Shown here: positions 3,740 through 16,493 of the stretch, piece after piece | Numbering within the stretch: the first letter of the stretch is position 1 | Layout: each line of letters starts with the position of its first letter | Source: Planctomycetota bacterium | Lineage (GTDB): Bacteria; Planctomycetota; UBA8742; UBA2392 | Length of the DNA: 64,000 bases | Assembly: GCA_019636195.1 (NCBI GenBank) | Contig: JAHBYA010000003.1 | Coordinates: 1-64,000 of the forward strand | Direction: 5' to 3' | Notes under the pieces: model-generated | Databases searched by the model: none | Told to the model about the DNA's origin: nothing | The model's input: only the letters and a program-made list of their open reading frames with translations | Translations under genes and position numbers: made by a program

Positions 3740-6700
3740 ATGAAGGCAATTGTGCCCGTCATCGCGCTGCTGATTTGCGGCGCGCTGCTCGCCCAGGAGC
3801 CGACCGTTACGGTCGAAGCCAAAGGCGCCGCCAAGGCCGAAGCCGGGCAGCAGTGGACGCTGGAACTCAAGTTCACGATCCCGGAAGGGTATCACGCCTA
3901 CCACAAGGACAACCCGGGCATCGGTTTGGCGCCCGACGTGACGTTTACGAACACCAACGGCCTGAAACTCGCGCAGCAGAAGTGGCCCGAGCCCAAGAAG
4001 AAGAAAGATGAATTGGGCGAAGAGTGGCTGCTGGAGGGCGCGTTCACGGTCCAGTACATCTTTGATGTACCCGCCGACGCGGAGGGCAGACTCGCGGTTG
4101 AGGGCAAGCACGACACGCAGTTCTGCACCGACGAGTTCTGCCTGATGGCCGACGGCAAGTTCAGCGCAAACCTTGAAGTCACGCTGGAAAAGCCGTGGGT
4201 CAAGCTCAGCGCGTCGTTTGCCGGCAGCGCTGACGCCGGCGGCAAAGCCGAGTTCAAGCTGCACTTCAAGATCAGCGAGGGCTTTCACGCCTACCACAAG
4301 GACAACCCGGGCTATGGCGTGGCGCCGATCATCCAGTTCACGCAGACCGCGGGCCTGACCAAGACCGGCGAGACCTGGCCCGAGCCCAAAAAGAAAGAGT
4401 ACGACAAGGACTGGGTCGAGTGGGAGTACAGCAACGAGTTCACGTTGACCTACACGTTCAGCGTGCCCAGAGACGCCAAGGGCGCACTTGAACTTGCAGG
4501 CACATGGGACGTGCAGGTGTGCGACGACGACGGCTGCCACCAGCGCACCGGCAAGTTCACAGCCAAGCTTGACGTGAAGCCGGCCGCCGACAGCGGCAGC
4601 ACCCCGCGCCTTGACCCCAAGCCGACCGTGGTCGCCGGCTTTGACGGTGCGGCCAAGGCAGGCGGCGAGGCCAAGCTCAGCCTCAGCATCACGCTGCCCG
4701 GCGAATGGGTGACCTATCACCCCGAGAACATCGCCAAGGGCGGCACGGGCAAAGGGCCTGAAATCGTGTTCACGCAGCTCGGCGGGCTGGAGCTTGCGGG
4801 CGAGAGCTGGCCAGAGGCAGTGCAGAAAAGCTACGACGGCTACTTTGAAAACGTGTACCGCAAACTGGTTGTGGCCACTTACACGTTCAAGGTGCCCGCC
4901 GGCGCCCACGGCAAGATCAGCATTGAAGGTACCTGGAACATCCTGCTGTGCGACGAAGTCTGCATCCCGCACAAGGGTACCTTCAGCGCGGTGCTGGAAG
5001 TCGCAGCAGGTGTTGACCGCACCCGCACGGACAGCCACGGCTTCTATCTGGACTTTGACTACGCGCTTGAACAGGCAAAGTTGCAAGGCAAGCCACTGCT
5101 GGTTGACTTCAACGGCCGCAACTGCCCGCCCTGCCGGGTCATGGAAGCCAGGGTGTTCACGCTGCCGGAGGTGAAGGATCTGTTCAAAGGCTTCATCATC
5201 GCCAGCGTCCAGAACGACATTGACGACGCGCGCTACAACGAACTCTGGCAACAGTACAAGCCCGCCCCCAACGCCGGCGTGCCCTACTACGCGGTGATCG
5301 ACCACGACGGCAAGGTCGTCCGCGGCATCGGGTCCACGCTGCCTGCCGACAAGCGCAGCCACGAGTTTGTGGCCTTCTTGAAAGGTGAAGCCCCGGCCTC
5401 GCAACCCAAGCCCGAGCCCCAACCCACAGCCACCGACCCAGCCAGCAAGCCCGCCGCGGAAAGCAACGGCAGCGGCTGGCCGGAAGGACTGATCGGCCCG
5501 CCCTACGCCGCAACGCAGCAGGGCTTTGACTTTGAGGCGAAGTTCACGACCAGCAAGATCAAGCCGGGCGGAAGTGTCACCCTTGAGTTGCACTTCAAGC
5601 TGAAGGAAAGCCCGGACGCGGGCCCCTACAACCTGTACACGCCTGAAACCGAGTTCGGGATTCCGCTGATTCTGAAGCTGCTCAGCCACAAGGGGCTTGA
5701 GCCTGTGGGCCAGTGGAAGTACCCCAAGGCCAAGGTCGTCACCGAAGAAGGTGTCGGCACGATGCACAAACTGCTCGGCCACGTGATTGTCGTGCAGGAG
5801 TTCAAGGTTCCCGACAACACGCCGCTTGGCACTTACCGGGTGTGGGGCACAGCTTCAGGCCAGTACTGTGACGACGCCGGGTGCATCCAGTTCAACCGCG
5901 ACGACCCCAGCGCCCCGGACCGCATGTTCGGCTGGGTCGCCAGCCTTGAAGTCGCCGCCGATGGCGCAATCACCGGCGTGATCCAGCCGATCATTGATCC
6001 GATTGAACCCAAGCCGGAGACCGAAAAGGACAGCTTTCTGTGGTTCCTGCTGCTGGCGTTTTTTGCAGGCATGATCACGCTGCTTACGCCGTGCGTGCTG
6101 CCGGTGATTCCGCTGACGATCGGCTTCTTTGTCAGCCAGGCCGAAAAGGGCCGCTCGCCGCTGCTGACGGCATGGATCTACTGCACGTGCATTGTTGCCA
6201 GCTTCACGTTGTTCGGCTTGATCACTTCGCTGACACTGGGCGCCACCGGCGCGCAGAACATTTCCACCAACGGCTGGGTCAACAGCTTCCTGGGCCTGCT
6301 GTTTCTTGTGTTCGCGCTGAGCTTCCTGGGCCTGTTCGAGCTGCGCGTGCCGACGTTCATGACCGCGTGGTTCACCAAGAAGCAGATGAGCGCGCAGAAA
6401 GAGGGCAAGGGCTACGCCAAGGCCTTCTTCAGCGGCTCGGCGTTTGCGCTGATCAGCTTTTCATGCACCGGCCCGATTGCCGGCGCATTCCTGGCCGGCG
6501 CGGCGGGCGGCGACATCTGGCTGCCGACGCTGGCCATGCTTGCGTTCAGCACCGGCATGGCGCTGCCGATCTTCATCATGGGCCAGTTCCCCAGCGTGAT
6601 GAAGAAGCTGCCCAAGTCCGGCGGCTGGATGAACGCGCTCAAGGTTGTCTTCGGCTTCATCGAGATCGGCCTTGCAATCATGTACTTCAGCGCCGCCGAG

Positions 6701-7414
6701 CAGGCCTTTGGCAGCATGCCCGCCGCCGAGTGGGTAAACCGCTATGTGGTGCTGGCGGTGTGGATCACGGTCAGCCTTGCCAGCGGGTTGTACCTGTTCG
6801 GGTTCTTCCGTATGCCGCACGACCATGAAAAGACCGAGCAGATCGGCGTGGTGCGCGCGCTGTTTGCCGTGGCGTTCATTTCCTTTGCGCTATATCTGGT
6901 GCCGGGTCTGTTCGGCGCCAAGTTCGGGCCGACGCTGGAGGGCATCCTGCCGCTGCCGCCTGAAAACGGCGGCATCCAGCTGAGCCTTGGCGGCGGCGAG
7001 GGGCAGCGCAACGACGCCAAGAAGCTGCCCTGGGAAAAGAACCTGGCCAAGGGCATCGAGACAGCCGGTCAGGTGAAGAAGCCCATCTTCATCGACTTTA
7101 CGGGCTTCAACTGAAAGAACTGCCGTCTCGTGGAACGAGACATCTTTCCGAAGGACGAGGTTTACAATCAGCTTAAGGATGACTTTGTGCTGGTCGCGCA
7201 ATACACCGACGATCCCAAGGACCCTGTGCCCGCCCAGAAGCTGAGCGAGTACACGGGCGGCGGCAGTTTTGCCGTGCCGCTGTACATCGTGGCGGACCAC
7301 AACGGCAAAGAGCTCGCGCGATTTGTTCCGCCCACGAACATCGCCTCTCTGTCATCCAAAGAGTTCGCAGAGTTCCTGCGCAACGCCAAGCAGAAGTACG
7401 CAAGCGGGAACTGA
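3740..7414 (+). CDS. dsbD: DsbD-type thiol-disulfide transporter, predicted selenoprotein (TGA = Sec1125)
   Basis: Predicted 1224-residue inner-membrane reductase that moves electrons from the cytoplasm to periplasmic thiols. In order: signal peptide; three DsbD-alpha-like Ig domains with Cys pairs near residues 129/134, 261/266 and 404/408; a thioredoxin domain with CPPC at about 462-465; a fourth alpha-like domain with Cys near 710; a DsbD transmembrane domain from about 764 with the paired cysteines in TPCVLP (785) and SFSCTG (909); and a C-terminal thioredoxin domain. In that last domain the expected CxxC reads TGA-K-N-C (7112-7123), flanked by the family's IFIDFTGFN and NCRLVERDIFP. The frame stays open another 99 codons and ends with TGATG overlapping the next gene. 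The start has GAAGGA seven bases upstream. If the TGA were a true stop, the protein would lose its whole terminal redox domain. Confidence 0.85.
7113..7148 (+). promoter_or_regulatory. candidate bacterial SECIS hairpin directing selenocysteine at TGA 7112-7114
   Basis: The RNA after the TGA can fold as a lower 6-bp helix (7113-7118 with 7143-7148), an asymmetric internal loop, and an upper 7-bp perfect helix (GTCTCGT 7125-7131 with ACGAGAC 7135-7141). The apical loop is GGA at 7132-7134. The loop begins with G and lies 18 bases past the TGA, which fits the general pattern for bacterial SECIS elements: a small apical loop with a G among its first two bases, about 16-37 bases from the codon. 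Positions were paired by eye; no folding energy was computed. Confidence 0.75.
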
Positions 7415-9177
7415 TGGACACACCTGCGGACGACACCTCCAAGCTTCCCAAGACCGCGCTGGCCGAGCGTCTGGCCAAGGCCACGCGTACTGTTGACCTG
7501 GGCGGGCCGGCGCCCCGGCGCATCTTTGACCAGGTCAGCATTGTCGCCATTGTGCTTGATACGTCCCTGACCGTGGTGCGCTACAACCGCGCCGCCGAAA
7601 GACTTTTCGGCAAGCGCTTCGACACCGTGCTGAACCGGCCCTACGCCGACAGCGTGCCCGCGCTGGCTGAGGTCAACCGCAGCCAGGTCTTTCAACGCAC
7701 GCTGGCGCTGGGCGTGCCCGGCGAAGTCAAAGAGGTCGAGATCCGTGAGCCCAAGAGCGGCGTGACGTTTTACTTTGACTTTGTGATCGACCCGATCATG
7801 GGCGATGACGGCCAGATTGCGGGCATCAGCCTGGTCGGCCTGGACGTAACCGAACGCGCCAAGCTCAGGCGCCAGCTGGCTGAACAGAATGAAGACCTCA
7901 AGGCGCTGCAGCAGGTCAGTGACTGGCTGCGCAAGACGATGGACCTGGAAAAAGCCTTCTTCATTACGGCAAGCGCGCTCACCAGCGCCGAGGGCGGCTA
8001 CGACCACGCCATGATTTTCACGGTTGACCAGGACCGCGAGTACCTGGTGGGCCGCATCTGCGTGGACAGCCTGAAACTCAGTGAAGTCTGGAGCATCTGG
8101 CGCGGGCTCACCAGCCACGATGCGCCGTTGCAGAAGTCGCTGGAAACGATGCAGCCCGTGCTGGCGCGTCGCTGGGGCGACCTGACGGACATGATCAAGC
8201 AGGTGAAAGTGCCGTTGAGCGACCCCAAGAGCGTGTTGATTCACGCGCTGAAAAGCCACGAGACTGTCACGCACCGCACGCTGGATGCGCAGGCGCACCT
8301 GCGCGTTCACCCCGCGATCAAGCAGCACTTTGAACTGGAGAGTTTCGCAGCCACGCCGCTGATGGCCGACAATGAGGCCATCGGCGTGCTGCTGGTGGAA
8401 AGCCGCCGCCCGCGCGAGTTCTCGCCGGAACAGCTCACGATGCTGGAGATGTTCGCGGGCCAGGCCGCGCTGGCCATCAACAACGGCATGATCTTCCAGA
8501 ACGTGCTGGATCGCGCCCAGCGCGACAGCCTGACGCGGCTGTACAATCACGGCCATTTTCAAGAGGCGCTGCGCAGCGAGCTTGAGCGCGCCGGCCGCTA
8601 CGGCAACCCGCTGTCGGTGATCATGCTCGACATCGATCACTTCAAGCGCTTCAACGACACGTGGGGCCACCAGACCGGCGACCGCGTGTTGAAGTCAACG
8701 GCGCTGCTGCTTTCGGCGCTGGTGCGCGTGACCGACCTGCCCGCGCGCTACGGCGGCGAAGAGTTCGCGCTGCTGCTGCCGCAGACCGACTACCAGCACG
8801 CCCTTGAGCTGGCCGAGCGTCTGCGCGTGGGCGTTGAGCGCAAGGTGCTGGTTTCCGGACCGAAAGGCGAGAAGATCGGCGTGACAGCGAGCTTTGGCGT
8901 GGCAAGTTTCCCCAAGCATGCGGAAGACGCAGCCTCGCTGATCAGCATCGCTGACGAGGCGCTGTACCTGTCCAAGGAAAGGGGACGCAACTGTGTCTCG
9001 GGCGCCGCCGAAGTCAGCGCGCAGGCCGAAGAAGAGCGCCGCAAACTGAAGGAAGCCCGCCGCACCAAGAAGCTGAAGCAGCAGGTGACGCAGGTGAAGT
9101 CTTATCCCGTCTCGCCGCCGCCGCAGAAGTCGGCAAAGAGTTCCGGCCGCCACAAGAAAAGCGGCAAGGTAAAATAG
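7414..9177 (+). CDS. diguanylate cyclase with PAS and GAF sensor domains
   Basis: A 587-residue soluble signalling protein. A PAS domain lies at about residues 35-140, a short helical linker follows, then a GAF domain at about 170-355 and a GGDEF domain at about 375-530. The active-site signature is RYGGEEF (about 445-451). The inhibitory I-site RxxD is present just upstream (RVTD), so product inhibition by cyclic di-GMP is expected. The C-terminus is a Lys-rich, disordered-looking tail ending in KKSGKVK. The ATG overlaps the dsbD stop by one base, so the two are translationally coupled. Coupling to a redox protein hints that the sensor domains respond to redox state; that is inference. Confidence 0.92.
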   Translation: MDTPADDTSKLPKTALAERLAKATRTVDLGGPAPRRIFDQVSIVAIVLDTSLTVVRYNRAAERLFGKRFDTVLNRPYADSVPALAEVNRSQVFQRTLALGVPGEVKEVEIREPKSGVTFYFDFVIDPIMGDDGQIAGISLVGLDVTERAKLRRQLAEQNEDLKALQQVSDWLRKTMDLEKAFFITASALTSAEGGYDHAMIFTVDQDREYLVGRICVDSLKLSEVWSIWRGLTSHDAPLQKSLETMQPVLARRWGDLTDMIKQVKVPLSDPKSVLIHALKSHETVTHRTLDAQAHLRVHPAIKQHFELESFAATPLMADNEAIGVLLVESRRPREFSPEQLTMLEMFAGQAALAINNGMIFQNVLDRAQRDSLTRLYNHGHFQEALRSELERAGRYGNPLSVIMLDIDHFKRFNDTWGHQTGDRVLKSTALLLSALVRVTDLPARYGGEEFALLLPQTDYQHALELAERLRVGVERKVLVSGPKGEKIGVTASFGVASFPKHAEDAASLISIADEALYLSKERGRNCVSGAAEVSAQAEEERRKLKEARRTKKLKQQVTQVKSYPVSPPPQKSAKSSGRHKKSGKVK

Positions 9178-14063: not shown

Positions 14064-16493
14064 ATGGCGCGAATGTCTGCAATCTTCTTGCTGGTGCTTG
14101 CCGGTGCAGTGCACGCGCAGGACCAGAAGATTGACATTGGCGTGGCCTACCCGTCCACGACCATGCTGTACGCGACCGCCGACAACTCGCGCCTTACTGC
14201 GGGGCTGGAACTGGACGAGCTGCTGACGTCACTGGGCAGCGAAGCCGGCCTGCCCGGCTTGCCCGAGTTCCTGCGTGAGCGCCTTGAGCTGAAACTGACA
14301 CCTGGAGAAGTGCGCAAGCTGGTGCGCGGCACACGCCGCACCAGTTTCGGACTGCTGGACATCACGGTAAGCGGCCCGAAGCTGCAGGTGGTGATTGAGC
14401 ACGACGACCTTTCCGCAGTCTCGCGCGCCCTGAAGCAGGCCCGCGCCGAAAAGCGCGGCACCGTGCCTGAGGTCAGGGAACACTACGAGACGCTGGTGTA
14501 CCTCATCAGCGTGCCGCAAGCGCCGGATCAGGCGCCACCCGGCATGGGCATGCGCATGAACCCGATGGGGGACTGGTTCCGGAACCAGGAGTTCTGGGTT
14601 GCAGTCCATGAAAACAAGCGGCTGGTGGTCGGCACGGCGCTGAGTTCCGTGACCGACGCGCTTGACTTTCTGTCGTTCCCGGATGACACGACCGACACGC
14701 TGCTTTCCAGCGCGCGCTACCGCGAAGCCGTCAACGAGTACGAAAAGCCGGACGCGCTGTTCTACGCCAGCATTGAATCCATCATCAACGCCGCCGAGCG
14801 GCTGGGCGGCGACCAGGGCCGCGGCATGATGTGGTGGTGGATCCTCGGCATGTGGCTGCCGATGGACGGCGACGATGAAACGGTGTCGTTCATGGTGCGG
14901 CTGTTGCAGTACGAGCAGTTCAAAAGCGCCTCGGCCGCGATGTGGCTCGACGACGCCAAGGGCACGCTACGCGTGGACATGAACGTGGCCTTCCACCACG
15001 CGCCCGGCTGGTTTGAGGCGCTGCGCATTGAGCCCGCGAAACGGCCTTTCACCGAGTTCATCCCCAACGAAACCACACTGGCCATCACCGACTGCATCAA
15101 GGACCCGATGGCGCTGTACCGGCGCTTCAAGGACTTTGTCGTGACGCGCGCCCGCAACGCCGGCCAGGACAAGCTGGCCGACGGCTGGGACGAGTGGGAG
15201 AAGCGCCTGATTGATGACGGCTCAGACCTTGAAGAAGTGCTGGGGCTGCTTGCCGGCGAGCAGGCGTTTGTGCTCGTGCCCAAGGCCGACGCGCCCACCA
15301 GCCCCTGGGACTTCCAGCCGGCGGCGTGGGGCGCCCTGCTGTCCGTCAAGGACCACGCCAAAGCTGAGAAGTTTTTGTACGAGCGGTTTCTGCCCAGCCA
15401 GCTTGGCGCATTTCTGCGCCCCGCCGAAGGCGGGCTCACGCGCGCAACCATAGTAGAAGGCATTGAGTTGCACGAGTCAGCCGACGGCAGCATCGCGTTT
15501 GCGCTGGCGCCGCGCGAAGACGGCAGCGGCGTGCTGCTGCTGGGCGACGCGCAGGCGGTGCGCCGGATGCTGGCGGCGAGAGCCGGCGGCGGCAGCGTGG
15601 CCGGGCTTGCGTCATGGCAGGCGGCGGGCAGCCAGTTGCCCGCGACATCCAGCCTTGGCATTTACCTGAATGCGGGCGCGGTGCTGACGGCGATTGGCCG
15701 CTACACGCGCATGTTCTCGTCGATGTGGATGTGGGAAGAGGAAGGCGAAGACAGCTTCGACCGCGACGACACCACGCGCGACGACGACTCCATGCCGTAC
15801 CTTGCCGGCATGTTCGAGCACACGGTGATCGCCGGCGGCGCGATCAGCCATGACAGCGGCATCCGGCTGCGAATGGCGGCGGCGGGCTGGCCGGCGCGCG
15901 ACGCGATGCAGGCGATGGTAAGCCACTTTCGTGATGTGCGCCGCAACCGCATGGTGCGCGACGACCTGTTGAAGGTGCGCGAGGCGGCGGTCGCCCACTT
16001 TGCCATCAAGGGCAAGATCGCGCGCGAGACCGGCGAGCTGCTCAAGCTGGGGTATCTGCGCGACGAGGAAGACGCCATCGACGCGTTCAGTGACGGAAAG
16101 CAGACCTACGCGCTGGCGGAGGTGCCGGATAATCTTGATATGCGCCAGGCCGTACTGCTGGCATACCAGCGCAGCCCGGGCTTGCGCGGCAACCACCTGT
16201 GCGTGCTGTGGAACCAGCATGTCGTTGAGCTTACGCCGCAGCAGCTTGCTGACGCGATGGAACGCGCCAGGAAAGGCGAAGCGATTGACGACCCGCAGTA
16301 CGCGAACCGCCTGCGCCCGTTGCATGAAGACAGCGGCCGCAGCGTGCGCGTGCCCGATGAATGGCCGCAGGAACGGATCCGGGTGGTCGTGATTGACGAC
16401 AACGGCGACGAGGTGGAAGCAGAAGTGGACCGCGAAAACATGCGTGCCGAAACTGAGCGCCTGCTTGACGAACGCAACGCCGAGAAAAAGTGA
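14064..16493 (+). CDS. exported protein of unknown function, paralogue A, 809 aa
   Basis: The N-terminus MARMSAIFLLVLAGAVHAQ is a signal peptide with a good cleavage site. GGAG seven bases upstream supports the ATG at 14064 over the longer frame that begins at 13914. The mature protein is large and of unknown function. It shares a recognisable block with the next gene: FGLLDITVSGPKLQVVIE here against VGLLDVTVEGPKFVIVLH there, about 100 residues from the start. Both proteins then show the same order of alternating strand and helix segments. The tandem arrangement, 33 bases apart, points to gene duplication and joint expression. An envelope or periplasmic location is inferred. Confidence 0.8.
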   Translation: MARMSAIFLLVLAGAVHAQDQKIDIGVAYPSTTMLYATADNSRLTAGLELDELLTSLGSEAGLPGLPEFLRERLELKLTPGEVRKLVRGTRRTSFGLLDITVSGPKLQVVIEHDDLSAVSRALKQARAEKRGTVPEVREHYETLVYLISVPQAPDQAPPGMGMRMNPMGDWFRNQEFWVAVHENKRLVVGTALSSVTDALDFLSFPDDTTDTLLSSARYREAVNEYEKPDALFYASIESIINAAERLGGDQGRGMMWWWILGMWLPMDGDDETVSFMVRLLQYEQFKSASAAMWLDDAKGTLRVDMNVAFHHAPGWFEALRIEPAKRPFTEFIPNETTLAITDCIKDPMALYRRFKDFVVTRARNAGQDKLADGWDEWEKRLIDDGSDLEEVLGLLAGEQAFVLVPKADAPTSPWDFQPAAWGALLSVKDHAKAEKFLYERFLPSQLGAFLRPAEGGLTRATIVEGIELHESADGSIAFALAPREDGSGVLLLGDAQAVRRMLAARAGGGSVAGLASWQAAGSQLPATSSLGIYLNAGAVLTAIGRYTRMFSSMWMWEEEGEDSFDRDDTTRDDDSMPYLAGMFEHTVIAGGAISHDSGIRLRMAAAGWPARDAMQAMVSHFRDVRRNRMVRDDLLKVREAAVAHFAIKGKIARETGELLKLGYLRDEEDAIDAFSDGKQTYALAEVPDNLDMRQAVLLAYQRSPGLRGNHLCVLWNQHVVELTPQQLADAMERARKGEAIDDPQYANRLRPLHEDSGRSVRVPDEWPQERIRVVVIDDNGDEVEAEVDRENMRAETERLLDERNAEKK

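Follow-up and report, generated by a model that had tools for sequence, protein, structure and literature searches.

An in-frame UGA predicted to encode selenocysteine in the terminal thioredoxin domain of a DsbD-type membrane thiol reductase of Planctomycetota

Introduction

DsbD is a textbook example of a protein that relays electrons across the inner membrane of bacteria. In a 64 kb stretch of planctomycete DNA (referred to as the window), a DsbD-type gene on the plus strand appears to end before the active site of its last domain is complete: the open reading frame that starts at ATG 3740 runs for 1,124 codons and then meets a TGA at 7112-7114. Past this codon, the frame continues with KNCRLVERDIFP... 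and meets no stop for 99 codons, up to a second TGA at 7412-7414. Is the first TGA a stop, or does it encode selenocysteine (Sec) in a full-length enzyme? An original prediction, made from the sequence of the window, had favored a selenoprotein. We examined the reading frame, the protein, the corresponding site in other Planctomycetota, and the selenocysteine genes of the genome.

Results

An in-frame UGA in a DsbD-type gene

Frame analysis again showed the predicted arrangement, with 1,124 codons reading into an in-frame TGA and 99 more open beyond it. When all six frames were scanned for codon usage, TGA 7112-7114 marked the sole interrupted coding frame in the window, and coding-type codon usage was kept downstream of it. 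The scan gave one further match, at 16491, which has the look of a normal stop separating neighboring genes. The features of the locus, all on the plus strand, are as follows.

3740..7414, +, Sec-DsbD gene of 1,224 codons with one internal UGA (predicted Sec1125) and a UGA stop at 7412-7414; from the frame and Pfam DsbD_N (three stretches), Thioredoxin_7 and DsbD_TM
3740..3796, +, signal peptide MKAIVPVIALLICGALLAQ, predicted by eye
3812..4168, +, first of three DsbD_N (alpha-type) stretches, with Cys pair CTDEFC at 4124-4141; Pfam PF11412, E 1.5e-29
4520-4537, +, further alpha-type Cys pair CDDDGC; motif position
4949-4963, +, further alpha-type Cys pair CDEVC; motif position
5051..5302, +, additional thioredoxin domain inside the chain, with Cys retained (NCPPC, 5120-5134); Pfam PF13899
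5867..5884, +, fourth CxxxxC motif, CDDAGC, in a region without a Pfam match
6041..6685, +, DsbD_TM membrane domain (beta); Pfam PF02683, E 5.2e-32
6092-6094 and 6464-6466, +, relay cysteines in TPCVLP and FSCTGP, neither of which varies among 65 aligned homologues
7031..7411, +, C-terminal thioredoxin (gamma) domain with predicted UKNC active site; Pfam PF13899, AlphaFold and Foldseek
7112..7114, +, UGA, predicted selenocysteine codon (Sec1125), equivalent of E. coli DsbD Cys-461
7121..7123, +, resolving Cys1128, equivalent of Cys-464, invariant
7125..7141, +, SECIS-like hairpin GUCUCGU-GGA-ACGAGAC, with the apical GGA loop 17 nt past the UGA
7414..9177, +, PAS-GAF-GGDEF (diguanylate cyclase) gene, a neighbor and not part of the selenoprotein

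The protein has the architecture of a DsbD-type thiol reductase

All domains expected of DsbD were detected. The alpha-type DsbD_N domain matched in three stretches with a Cys pair (PF11412, 103 bits), and the membrane domain matched PF02683 at 111 bits, with the relay cysteines falling in invariant alignment columns (C26 and C150). The C-terminal domain has the DsbD gamma fold and carries UxxC here and CxxC in 47 homologues; both positions of this pair are invariant in the 65 aligned homologues when U is written as C. The protein is therefore DsbD-type as originally described, but "transporter" does not suit a membrane thiol reductase, which moves electrons and not solutes. With the NCBIfam DsbD subfamily model NF001419, it scored 156 bits, below the cut-off of 330, and thus appears to be DsbD-type but outside that subfamily.

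The membrane and gamma domains were modeled using AlphaFold with a mean pLDDT of 89.5 and a pTM of 0.84. In this model, the Sec position lies immediately before, or at the N-terminus of, the first thioredoxin helix. Foldseek matched the gamma domain to 3f9u, 1uc7, 1vrs, and 2fwe and returned no convincing solved match for the membrane part. The nearest solved structure in sequence and fold is 3f9u, the C-terminal domain of a Bacteroides fragilis cytochrome c biogenesis-related protein, which reads DFTGYGCVNCRKME around the site and is a Cys version. The other three structures are of the E. coli DsbD gamma domain.

E. coli DsbD shares with the planctomycete protein the alpha-type domain, the two relay cysteines of DsbD_TM, and the C-terminal thioredoxin domain, in which Glu +7 (Glu-468) is conserved; Asp -6 (Asp-455) is also kept in this copy. 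The planctomycete protein differs in having multiple alpha-type domains, a further thioredoxin domain within the chain, and a predicted Sec where E. coli DsbD has the attacking Cys-461; the gamma domains are only about 20% identical.

Only TGA or Cys occurs at the site across Planctomycetota

One alternative is that the TGA is a real stop, arising from a recent nonsense mutation, a pseudogene, or a sequencing or assembly error, with the 99 codons as a remnant. The open reading frame does end there mechanically, and the assembly that contains the window is a draft (3.9 Mb, 26 contigs, 95% complete). In a draw of 392 Planctomycetota genomes, a homologue was found in 215; 130 loci from 129 genomes were taken and aligned at the site. 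TGA was present in 83 loci and a Cys codon in 47; neither TAA, TAG, nor any other residue occurred. The eight named Planctomycetota relatives in the GTDB collection all have TGA. A scan across genome contigs matched close relatives only. An alignment that had been proposed as a check on the prediction thus returned Cys or TGA only in relatives, in agreement with the placement of the TGA at the family's first redox Cys of the C-terminal domain. Recurrence of the same TGA in 83 genes from many genera and families, with the frame intact beyond it and Cys as the only alternative, argues strongly against a stop, as does the coding-type codon usage downstream; an error is made untenable by independent genomes with the same TGA. 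We consider a real stop highly improbable. On this comparative evidence, TGA 7112-7114 is best read as a selenocysteine codon and not as a stop, a sequencing error, or the mark of a pseudogene. One part of the prediction was not borne out: the terminal domain of DsbD was called a rare place for Sec, whereas in Planctomycetota, 83 of the 130 copies examined have TGA.

On the best tree, which was built without the site, Sec and Cys have exchanged at least 10 times, or 6 times if supported branches alone are counted. Both forms are held by genera of the window's own family.

A selB match was detected in the genomes of 79 of 83 TGA copies; for Cys copies, the figure is 37 of 47 (Fisher P = 0.006). 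When selA is counted as well as selB, 82 of 83 TGA copies are covered. SelB was called at E < 1e-70, because the same model gives elongation factors E-values as low as about 1e-60. The presence of SelB alone separates the two groups only moderately because many genomes with the Cys form also have selB, presumably for other selenoproteins. Four TGA copies lack a selB match. Since three of their genomes have selA (498-572 bits), two of these together with a strong tRNA-Sec match, selB is probably missing from these three through incomplete assembly. The fourth (G061, 90% complete) has neither selB nor a convincing selA. Searches of four Cys genomes that are 100% complete (G320, G282, G216, and G372) gave no selB, and no tRNA-Sec match passed the cut-off.

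The residue at -6 also differs between the groups: Asp is absent in 55 of 83 Sec copies and, among Cys copies, in 12 of 47 (Fisher P = 9e-6), and many Sec copies have Asn. A link between Sec and loss of this pKa-raising Asp was rejected, as the trend vanishes on independent pairs of the tree.

The genome encodes the selenocysteine machinery and further candidate selenoproteins

We then searched the genome family by family. All four genes on which the prediction was to be judged were found: selC (tRNA-Sec, 69 bits; anticodon UCA by ARAGORN), selB (340 bits against a cut-off of 242), selA (532 bits, about 1 kb from tRNA-Sec), and selD (396 bits). The last has its own in-frame UGA in SHGAGUGCK, a well-known selenocysteine site. 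A phosphonate-type ABC transporter gene with fused permease and ATPase (by eye; locus L015, 10090-12946, on contig C8) adjoins selA and tRNA-Sec and is possibly a selenium-oxyanion importer.

UGA is a sense codon in some bacteria, and a genome-wide reassignment (e.g., to Trp or Gly) could be proposed in place of Sec. This reading is difficult to reconcile with the use of UGA to terminate both the Sec-DsbD gene at 7412 and a neighboring gene at 16491, with the presence of a dedicated tRNA-Sec and SelB, or with Cys, never Trp or Gly, as the alternative residue at the site. We judge it even less probable than a real stop. Selenocysteine remains the preferred reading.

At least five other genes of the genome have Sec-type UGAs. 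One encodes the formate dehydrogenase alpha subunit (FdhA; G000:C20:342121-343392), with Sec in AATUHFP. Three are exported thioredoxin-family genes with UGA at redox sites. The first (L159, G000:C23:120770-121012) encodes a thioredoxin-TPR protein, AEWUGPCKKL, with Sec in the classic WCGPC site; its paralogue (L158, C20:302455) has SWCGPC. The second (L162, G000:C10:11952-12188) is lipoprotein-like and joins a heavy-metal-associated-like domain (GITUAGU) to one of thioredoxin type (GPGUAPC); its three in-frame UGAs are all at Cys-type positions. The third (L163, G000:C21:49998-50189, minus strand) is a thioredoxin/PDZ-type gene with two UGAs (FRUDPUADC), resembling by architecture alone the Trx7/PDZ selenoproteins of NCBIfam NF041199.

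A SECIS-like hairpin follows the UGA

In bacteria, the SECIS element is a hairpin immediately 3' of the UGA with a G-containing apical loop 16-37 nt away. Such a hairpin is found here, with a GGA loop after 17 nt, compensatory changes in relatives, and support from a folding test on the group. The corresponding stems of close relatives are GGACCGU/ACGGUCC and GAACCGU/ACGGUUC, so that three of seven pairs are altered on both sides with every cell of the comparison paired; when the register of the stem was slid, pairing was not kept in these relatives. Across the phylum, the 40 bases past the site were compared with synonymous recodings. In TGA copies, they folded more strongly than the recodings (mean z = -1.32 over 81 copies), and by a larger margin than in Cys copies (mean z = -0.56 over 46 copies), with a Mann-Whitney P of 3e-4 that is optimistic because the rows are related. 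Folded alone, the window's own sequence is mildly better than shuffles (z = -0.3 to -1.75), and a longer alternative hairpin competes. An Rfam scan of the site gave chance matches only. Assignment of this hairpin as a putative SECIS thus rests on comparison; folding of the single sequence is not convincing.

The downstream gene overlaps the second UGA in the nearest relatives

The stop of the DsbD gene (7412-7414) overlaps the ATG of the PAS-GAF-GGDEF gene at 7414 in the sequence TGATG (7412-7416). This overlap had been noticed in the original prediction; we found it again, and it recurs within the genus. In the relatives checked, the gene after DsbD is likewise of PAS type and similar, and this neighborhood suggests a link between periplasmic redox and c-di-GMP.

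Selenocysteine decoding in bacteria is inefficient, and the locus could yield two products by design: under scarce selenium, partial termination at UGA 7112 would give DsbD without the gamma domain, and read-through would give the full enzyme and, owing to the overlap, also set translation of the GGDEF gene. The overlap within the genus and the similar downstream gene in relatives are in keeping with this idea, which would add to the main explanation. However, the overlap is confined to the nearest relatives, and the other relatives have gaps of roughly 12-110 bases. We regard two products by design as doubtful.

Discussion

Taken with the selenocysteine genes and the SECIS-like hairpin, the restriction of the site to Sec or Cys upholds the predicted selenoprotein with UxxC in the terminal domain of DsbD. 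We are highly confident that the product of the gene is a DsbD-type membrane thiol reductase of full length, with Sec-x-x-Cys in its C-terminal thioredoxin domain, UGA 7112 being decoded by SelB, tRNA-Sec, and a SECIS. Comparison among genomes supports this through Sec-decoding capacity, the exclusive exchange of Sec and Cys at the site, and covariation in the putative SECIS stem, and it points to a real and widespread selenoprotein of Planctomycetota. SelB and tRNA-Sec would insert Sec at UGA 7112 with the help of the downstream hairpin inside the coding sequence, and UGA 7412, without a SECIS context, would end the protein.

The gamma domain of E. coli DsbD takes up electrons from the membrane domain and passes them to alpha, with Cys-461 attacking the alpha disulfide; this residue is said to need its unusually high pKa of 10.6 so that gamma is spared side reactions (PMC3961690). 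If the planctomycete enzyme works in the same way, cytoplasmic thioredoxin would reduce the Cys pair of the membrane domain, which would pass electrons to the Sec-Cys pair of gamma. The exported alpha-type domains would receive them next, at their Cys pairs, and exported thiol proteins last. In the gamma-to-alpha step, the attack would be made by Sec, and the oxidized Sec-Cys pair would be a selenenylsulfide, re-reduced by the membrane pair. Sec should either make the gamma-to-alpha step faster or ease recovery after over-oxidation. A selenol would be expected to undo the high-pKa protection of the E. coli gamma domain.

A broader reading joins these observations. Sec-DsbD, with a Sec gamma domain that lacks a very high pKa, might be the hub of an extracytoplasmic selenium-based reducing chain that feeds the UGPC thioredoxin-TPR protein, the triple-Sec lipoprotein, and the double-Sec thioredoxin/PDZ protein, and selenium supply might set both periplasmic redox and, by way of the overlapping stop and start codons, production of the c-di-GMP enzyme. 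We offer this picture as tentative and, as a whole, rather unlikely.

The principle of Sec in thioredoxin domains is already known. We take the model cd02953 to be that of DsbD gamma; going by its Table 2, the GOS selenoproteome of 2008 therefore already counts Sec in a DsbD-gamma-like domain, which is thus less new than the original prediction held. The entry, 'Trx-like 2 (Thiol disulfide interchange protein)', cd02953, comprises 22 marine metagenome sequences and shares with our protein a UxxC in a thioredoxin domain (PMC2398784). As far as this table entry goes, it differs in being listed as a thioredoxin-like family, without membrane architecture, host phylum, or Sec/Cys history (PMC2398784). 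By description, the PF13098 'Thiol:disulfide interchange protein' of Geobacter and Syntrophus likewise has UxxC in a thioredoxin domain (PMC1794560, PMC13188914).

No NCBIfam selenoprotein model was passed by Sec-DsbD. Membership in TsoB (NF045694), a rhodanese/DsbD fusion-like selenoprotein, was considered and rejected. The DsbD_TM region matches this model (residues 760-1054), but the 171 bits are far under the curated cut-off of 805, and the single-Sec UxxC in the gamma domain has no second Sec, unlike the two in the UxxxxU of TsoB (PMC13188914). The openly accessible literature searched yielded no full-length Sec-DsbD and none in Planctomycetota. The whole membrane-embedded Sec enzyme, its phylum-wide spread, and its repeated Sec/Cys switching appear undescribed in that literature.

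Standard gene callers would cut Sec-DsbD before its last domain, and planctomycete redox annotation is therefore likely wrong in many genomes. A phylum that usually has Sec at the equivalent of Cys-461, with many switches between near relatives, makes it possible to test with matched natural pairs what selenium buys in a membrane electron relay. Four loci of the window's own GTDB family (L036-L039) provide such pairs: they have a Cys DsbD (TG.IC.NCRWVE) in genera whose other species have the Sec form.
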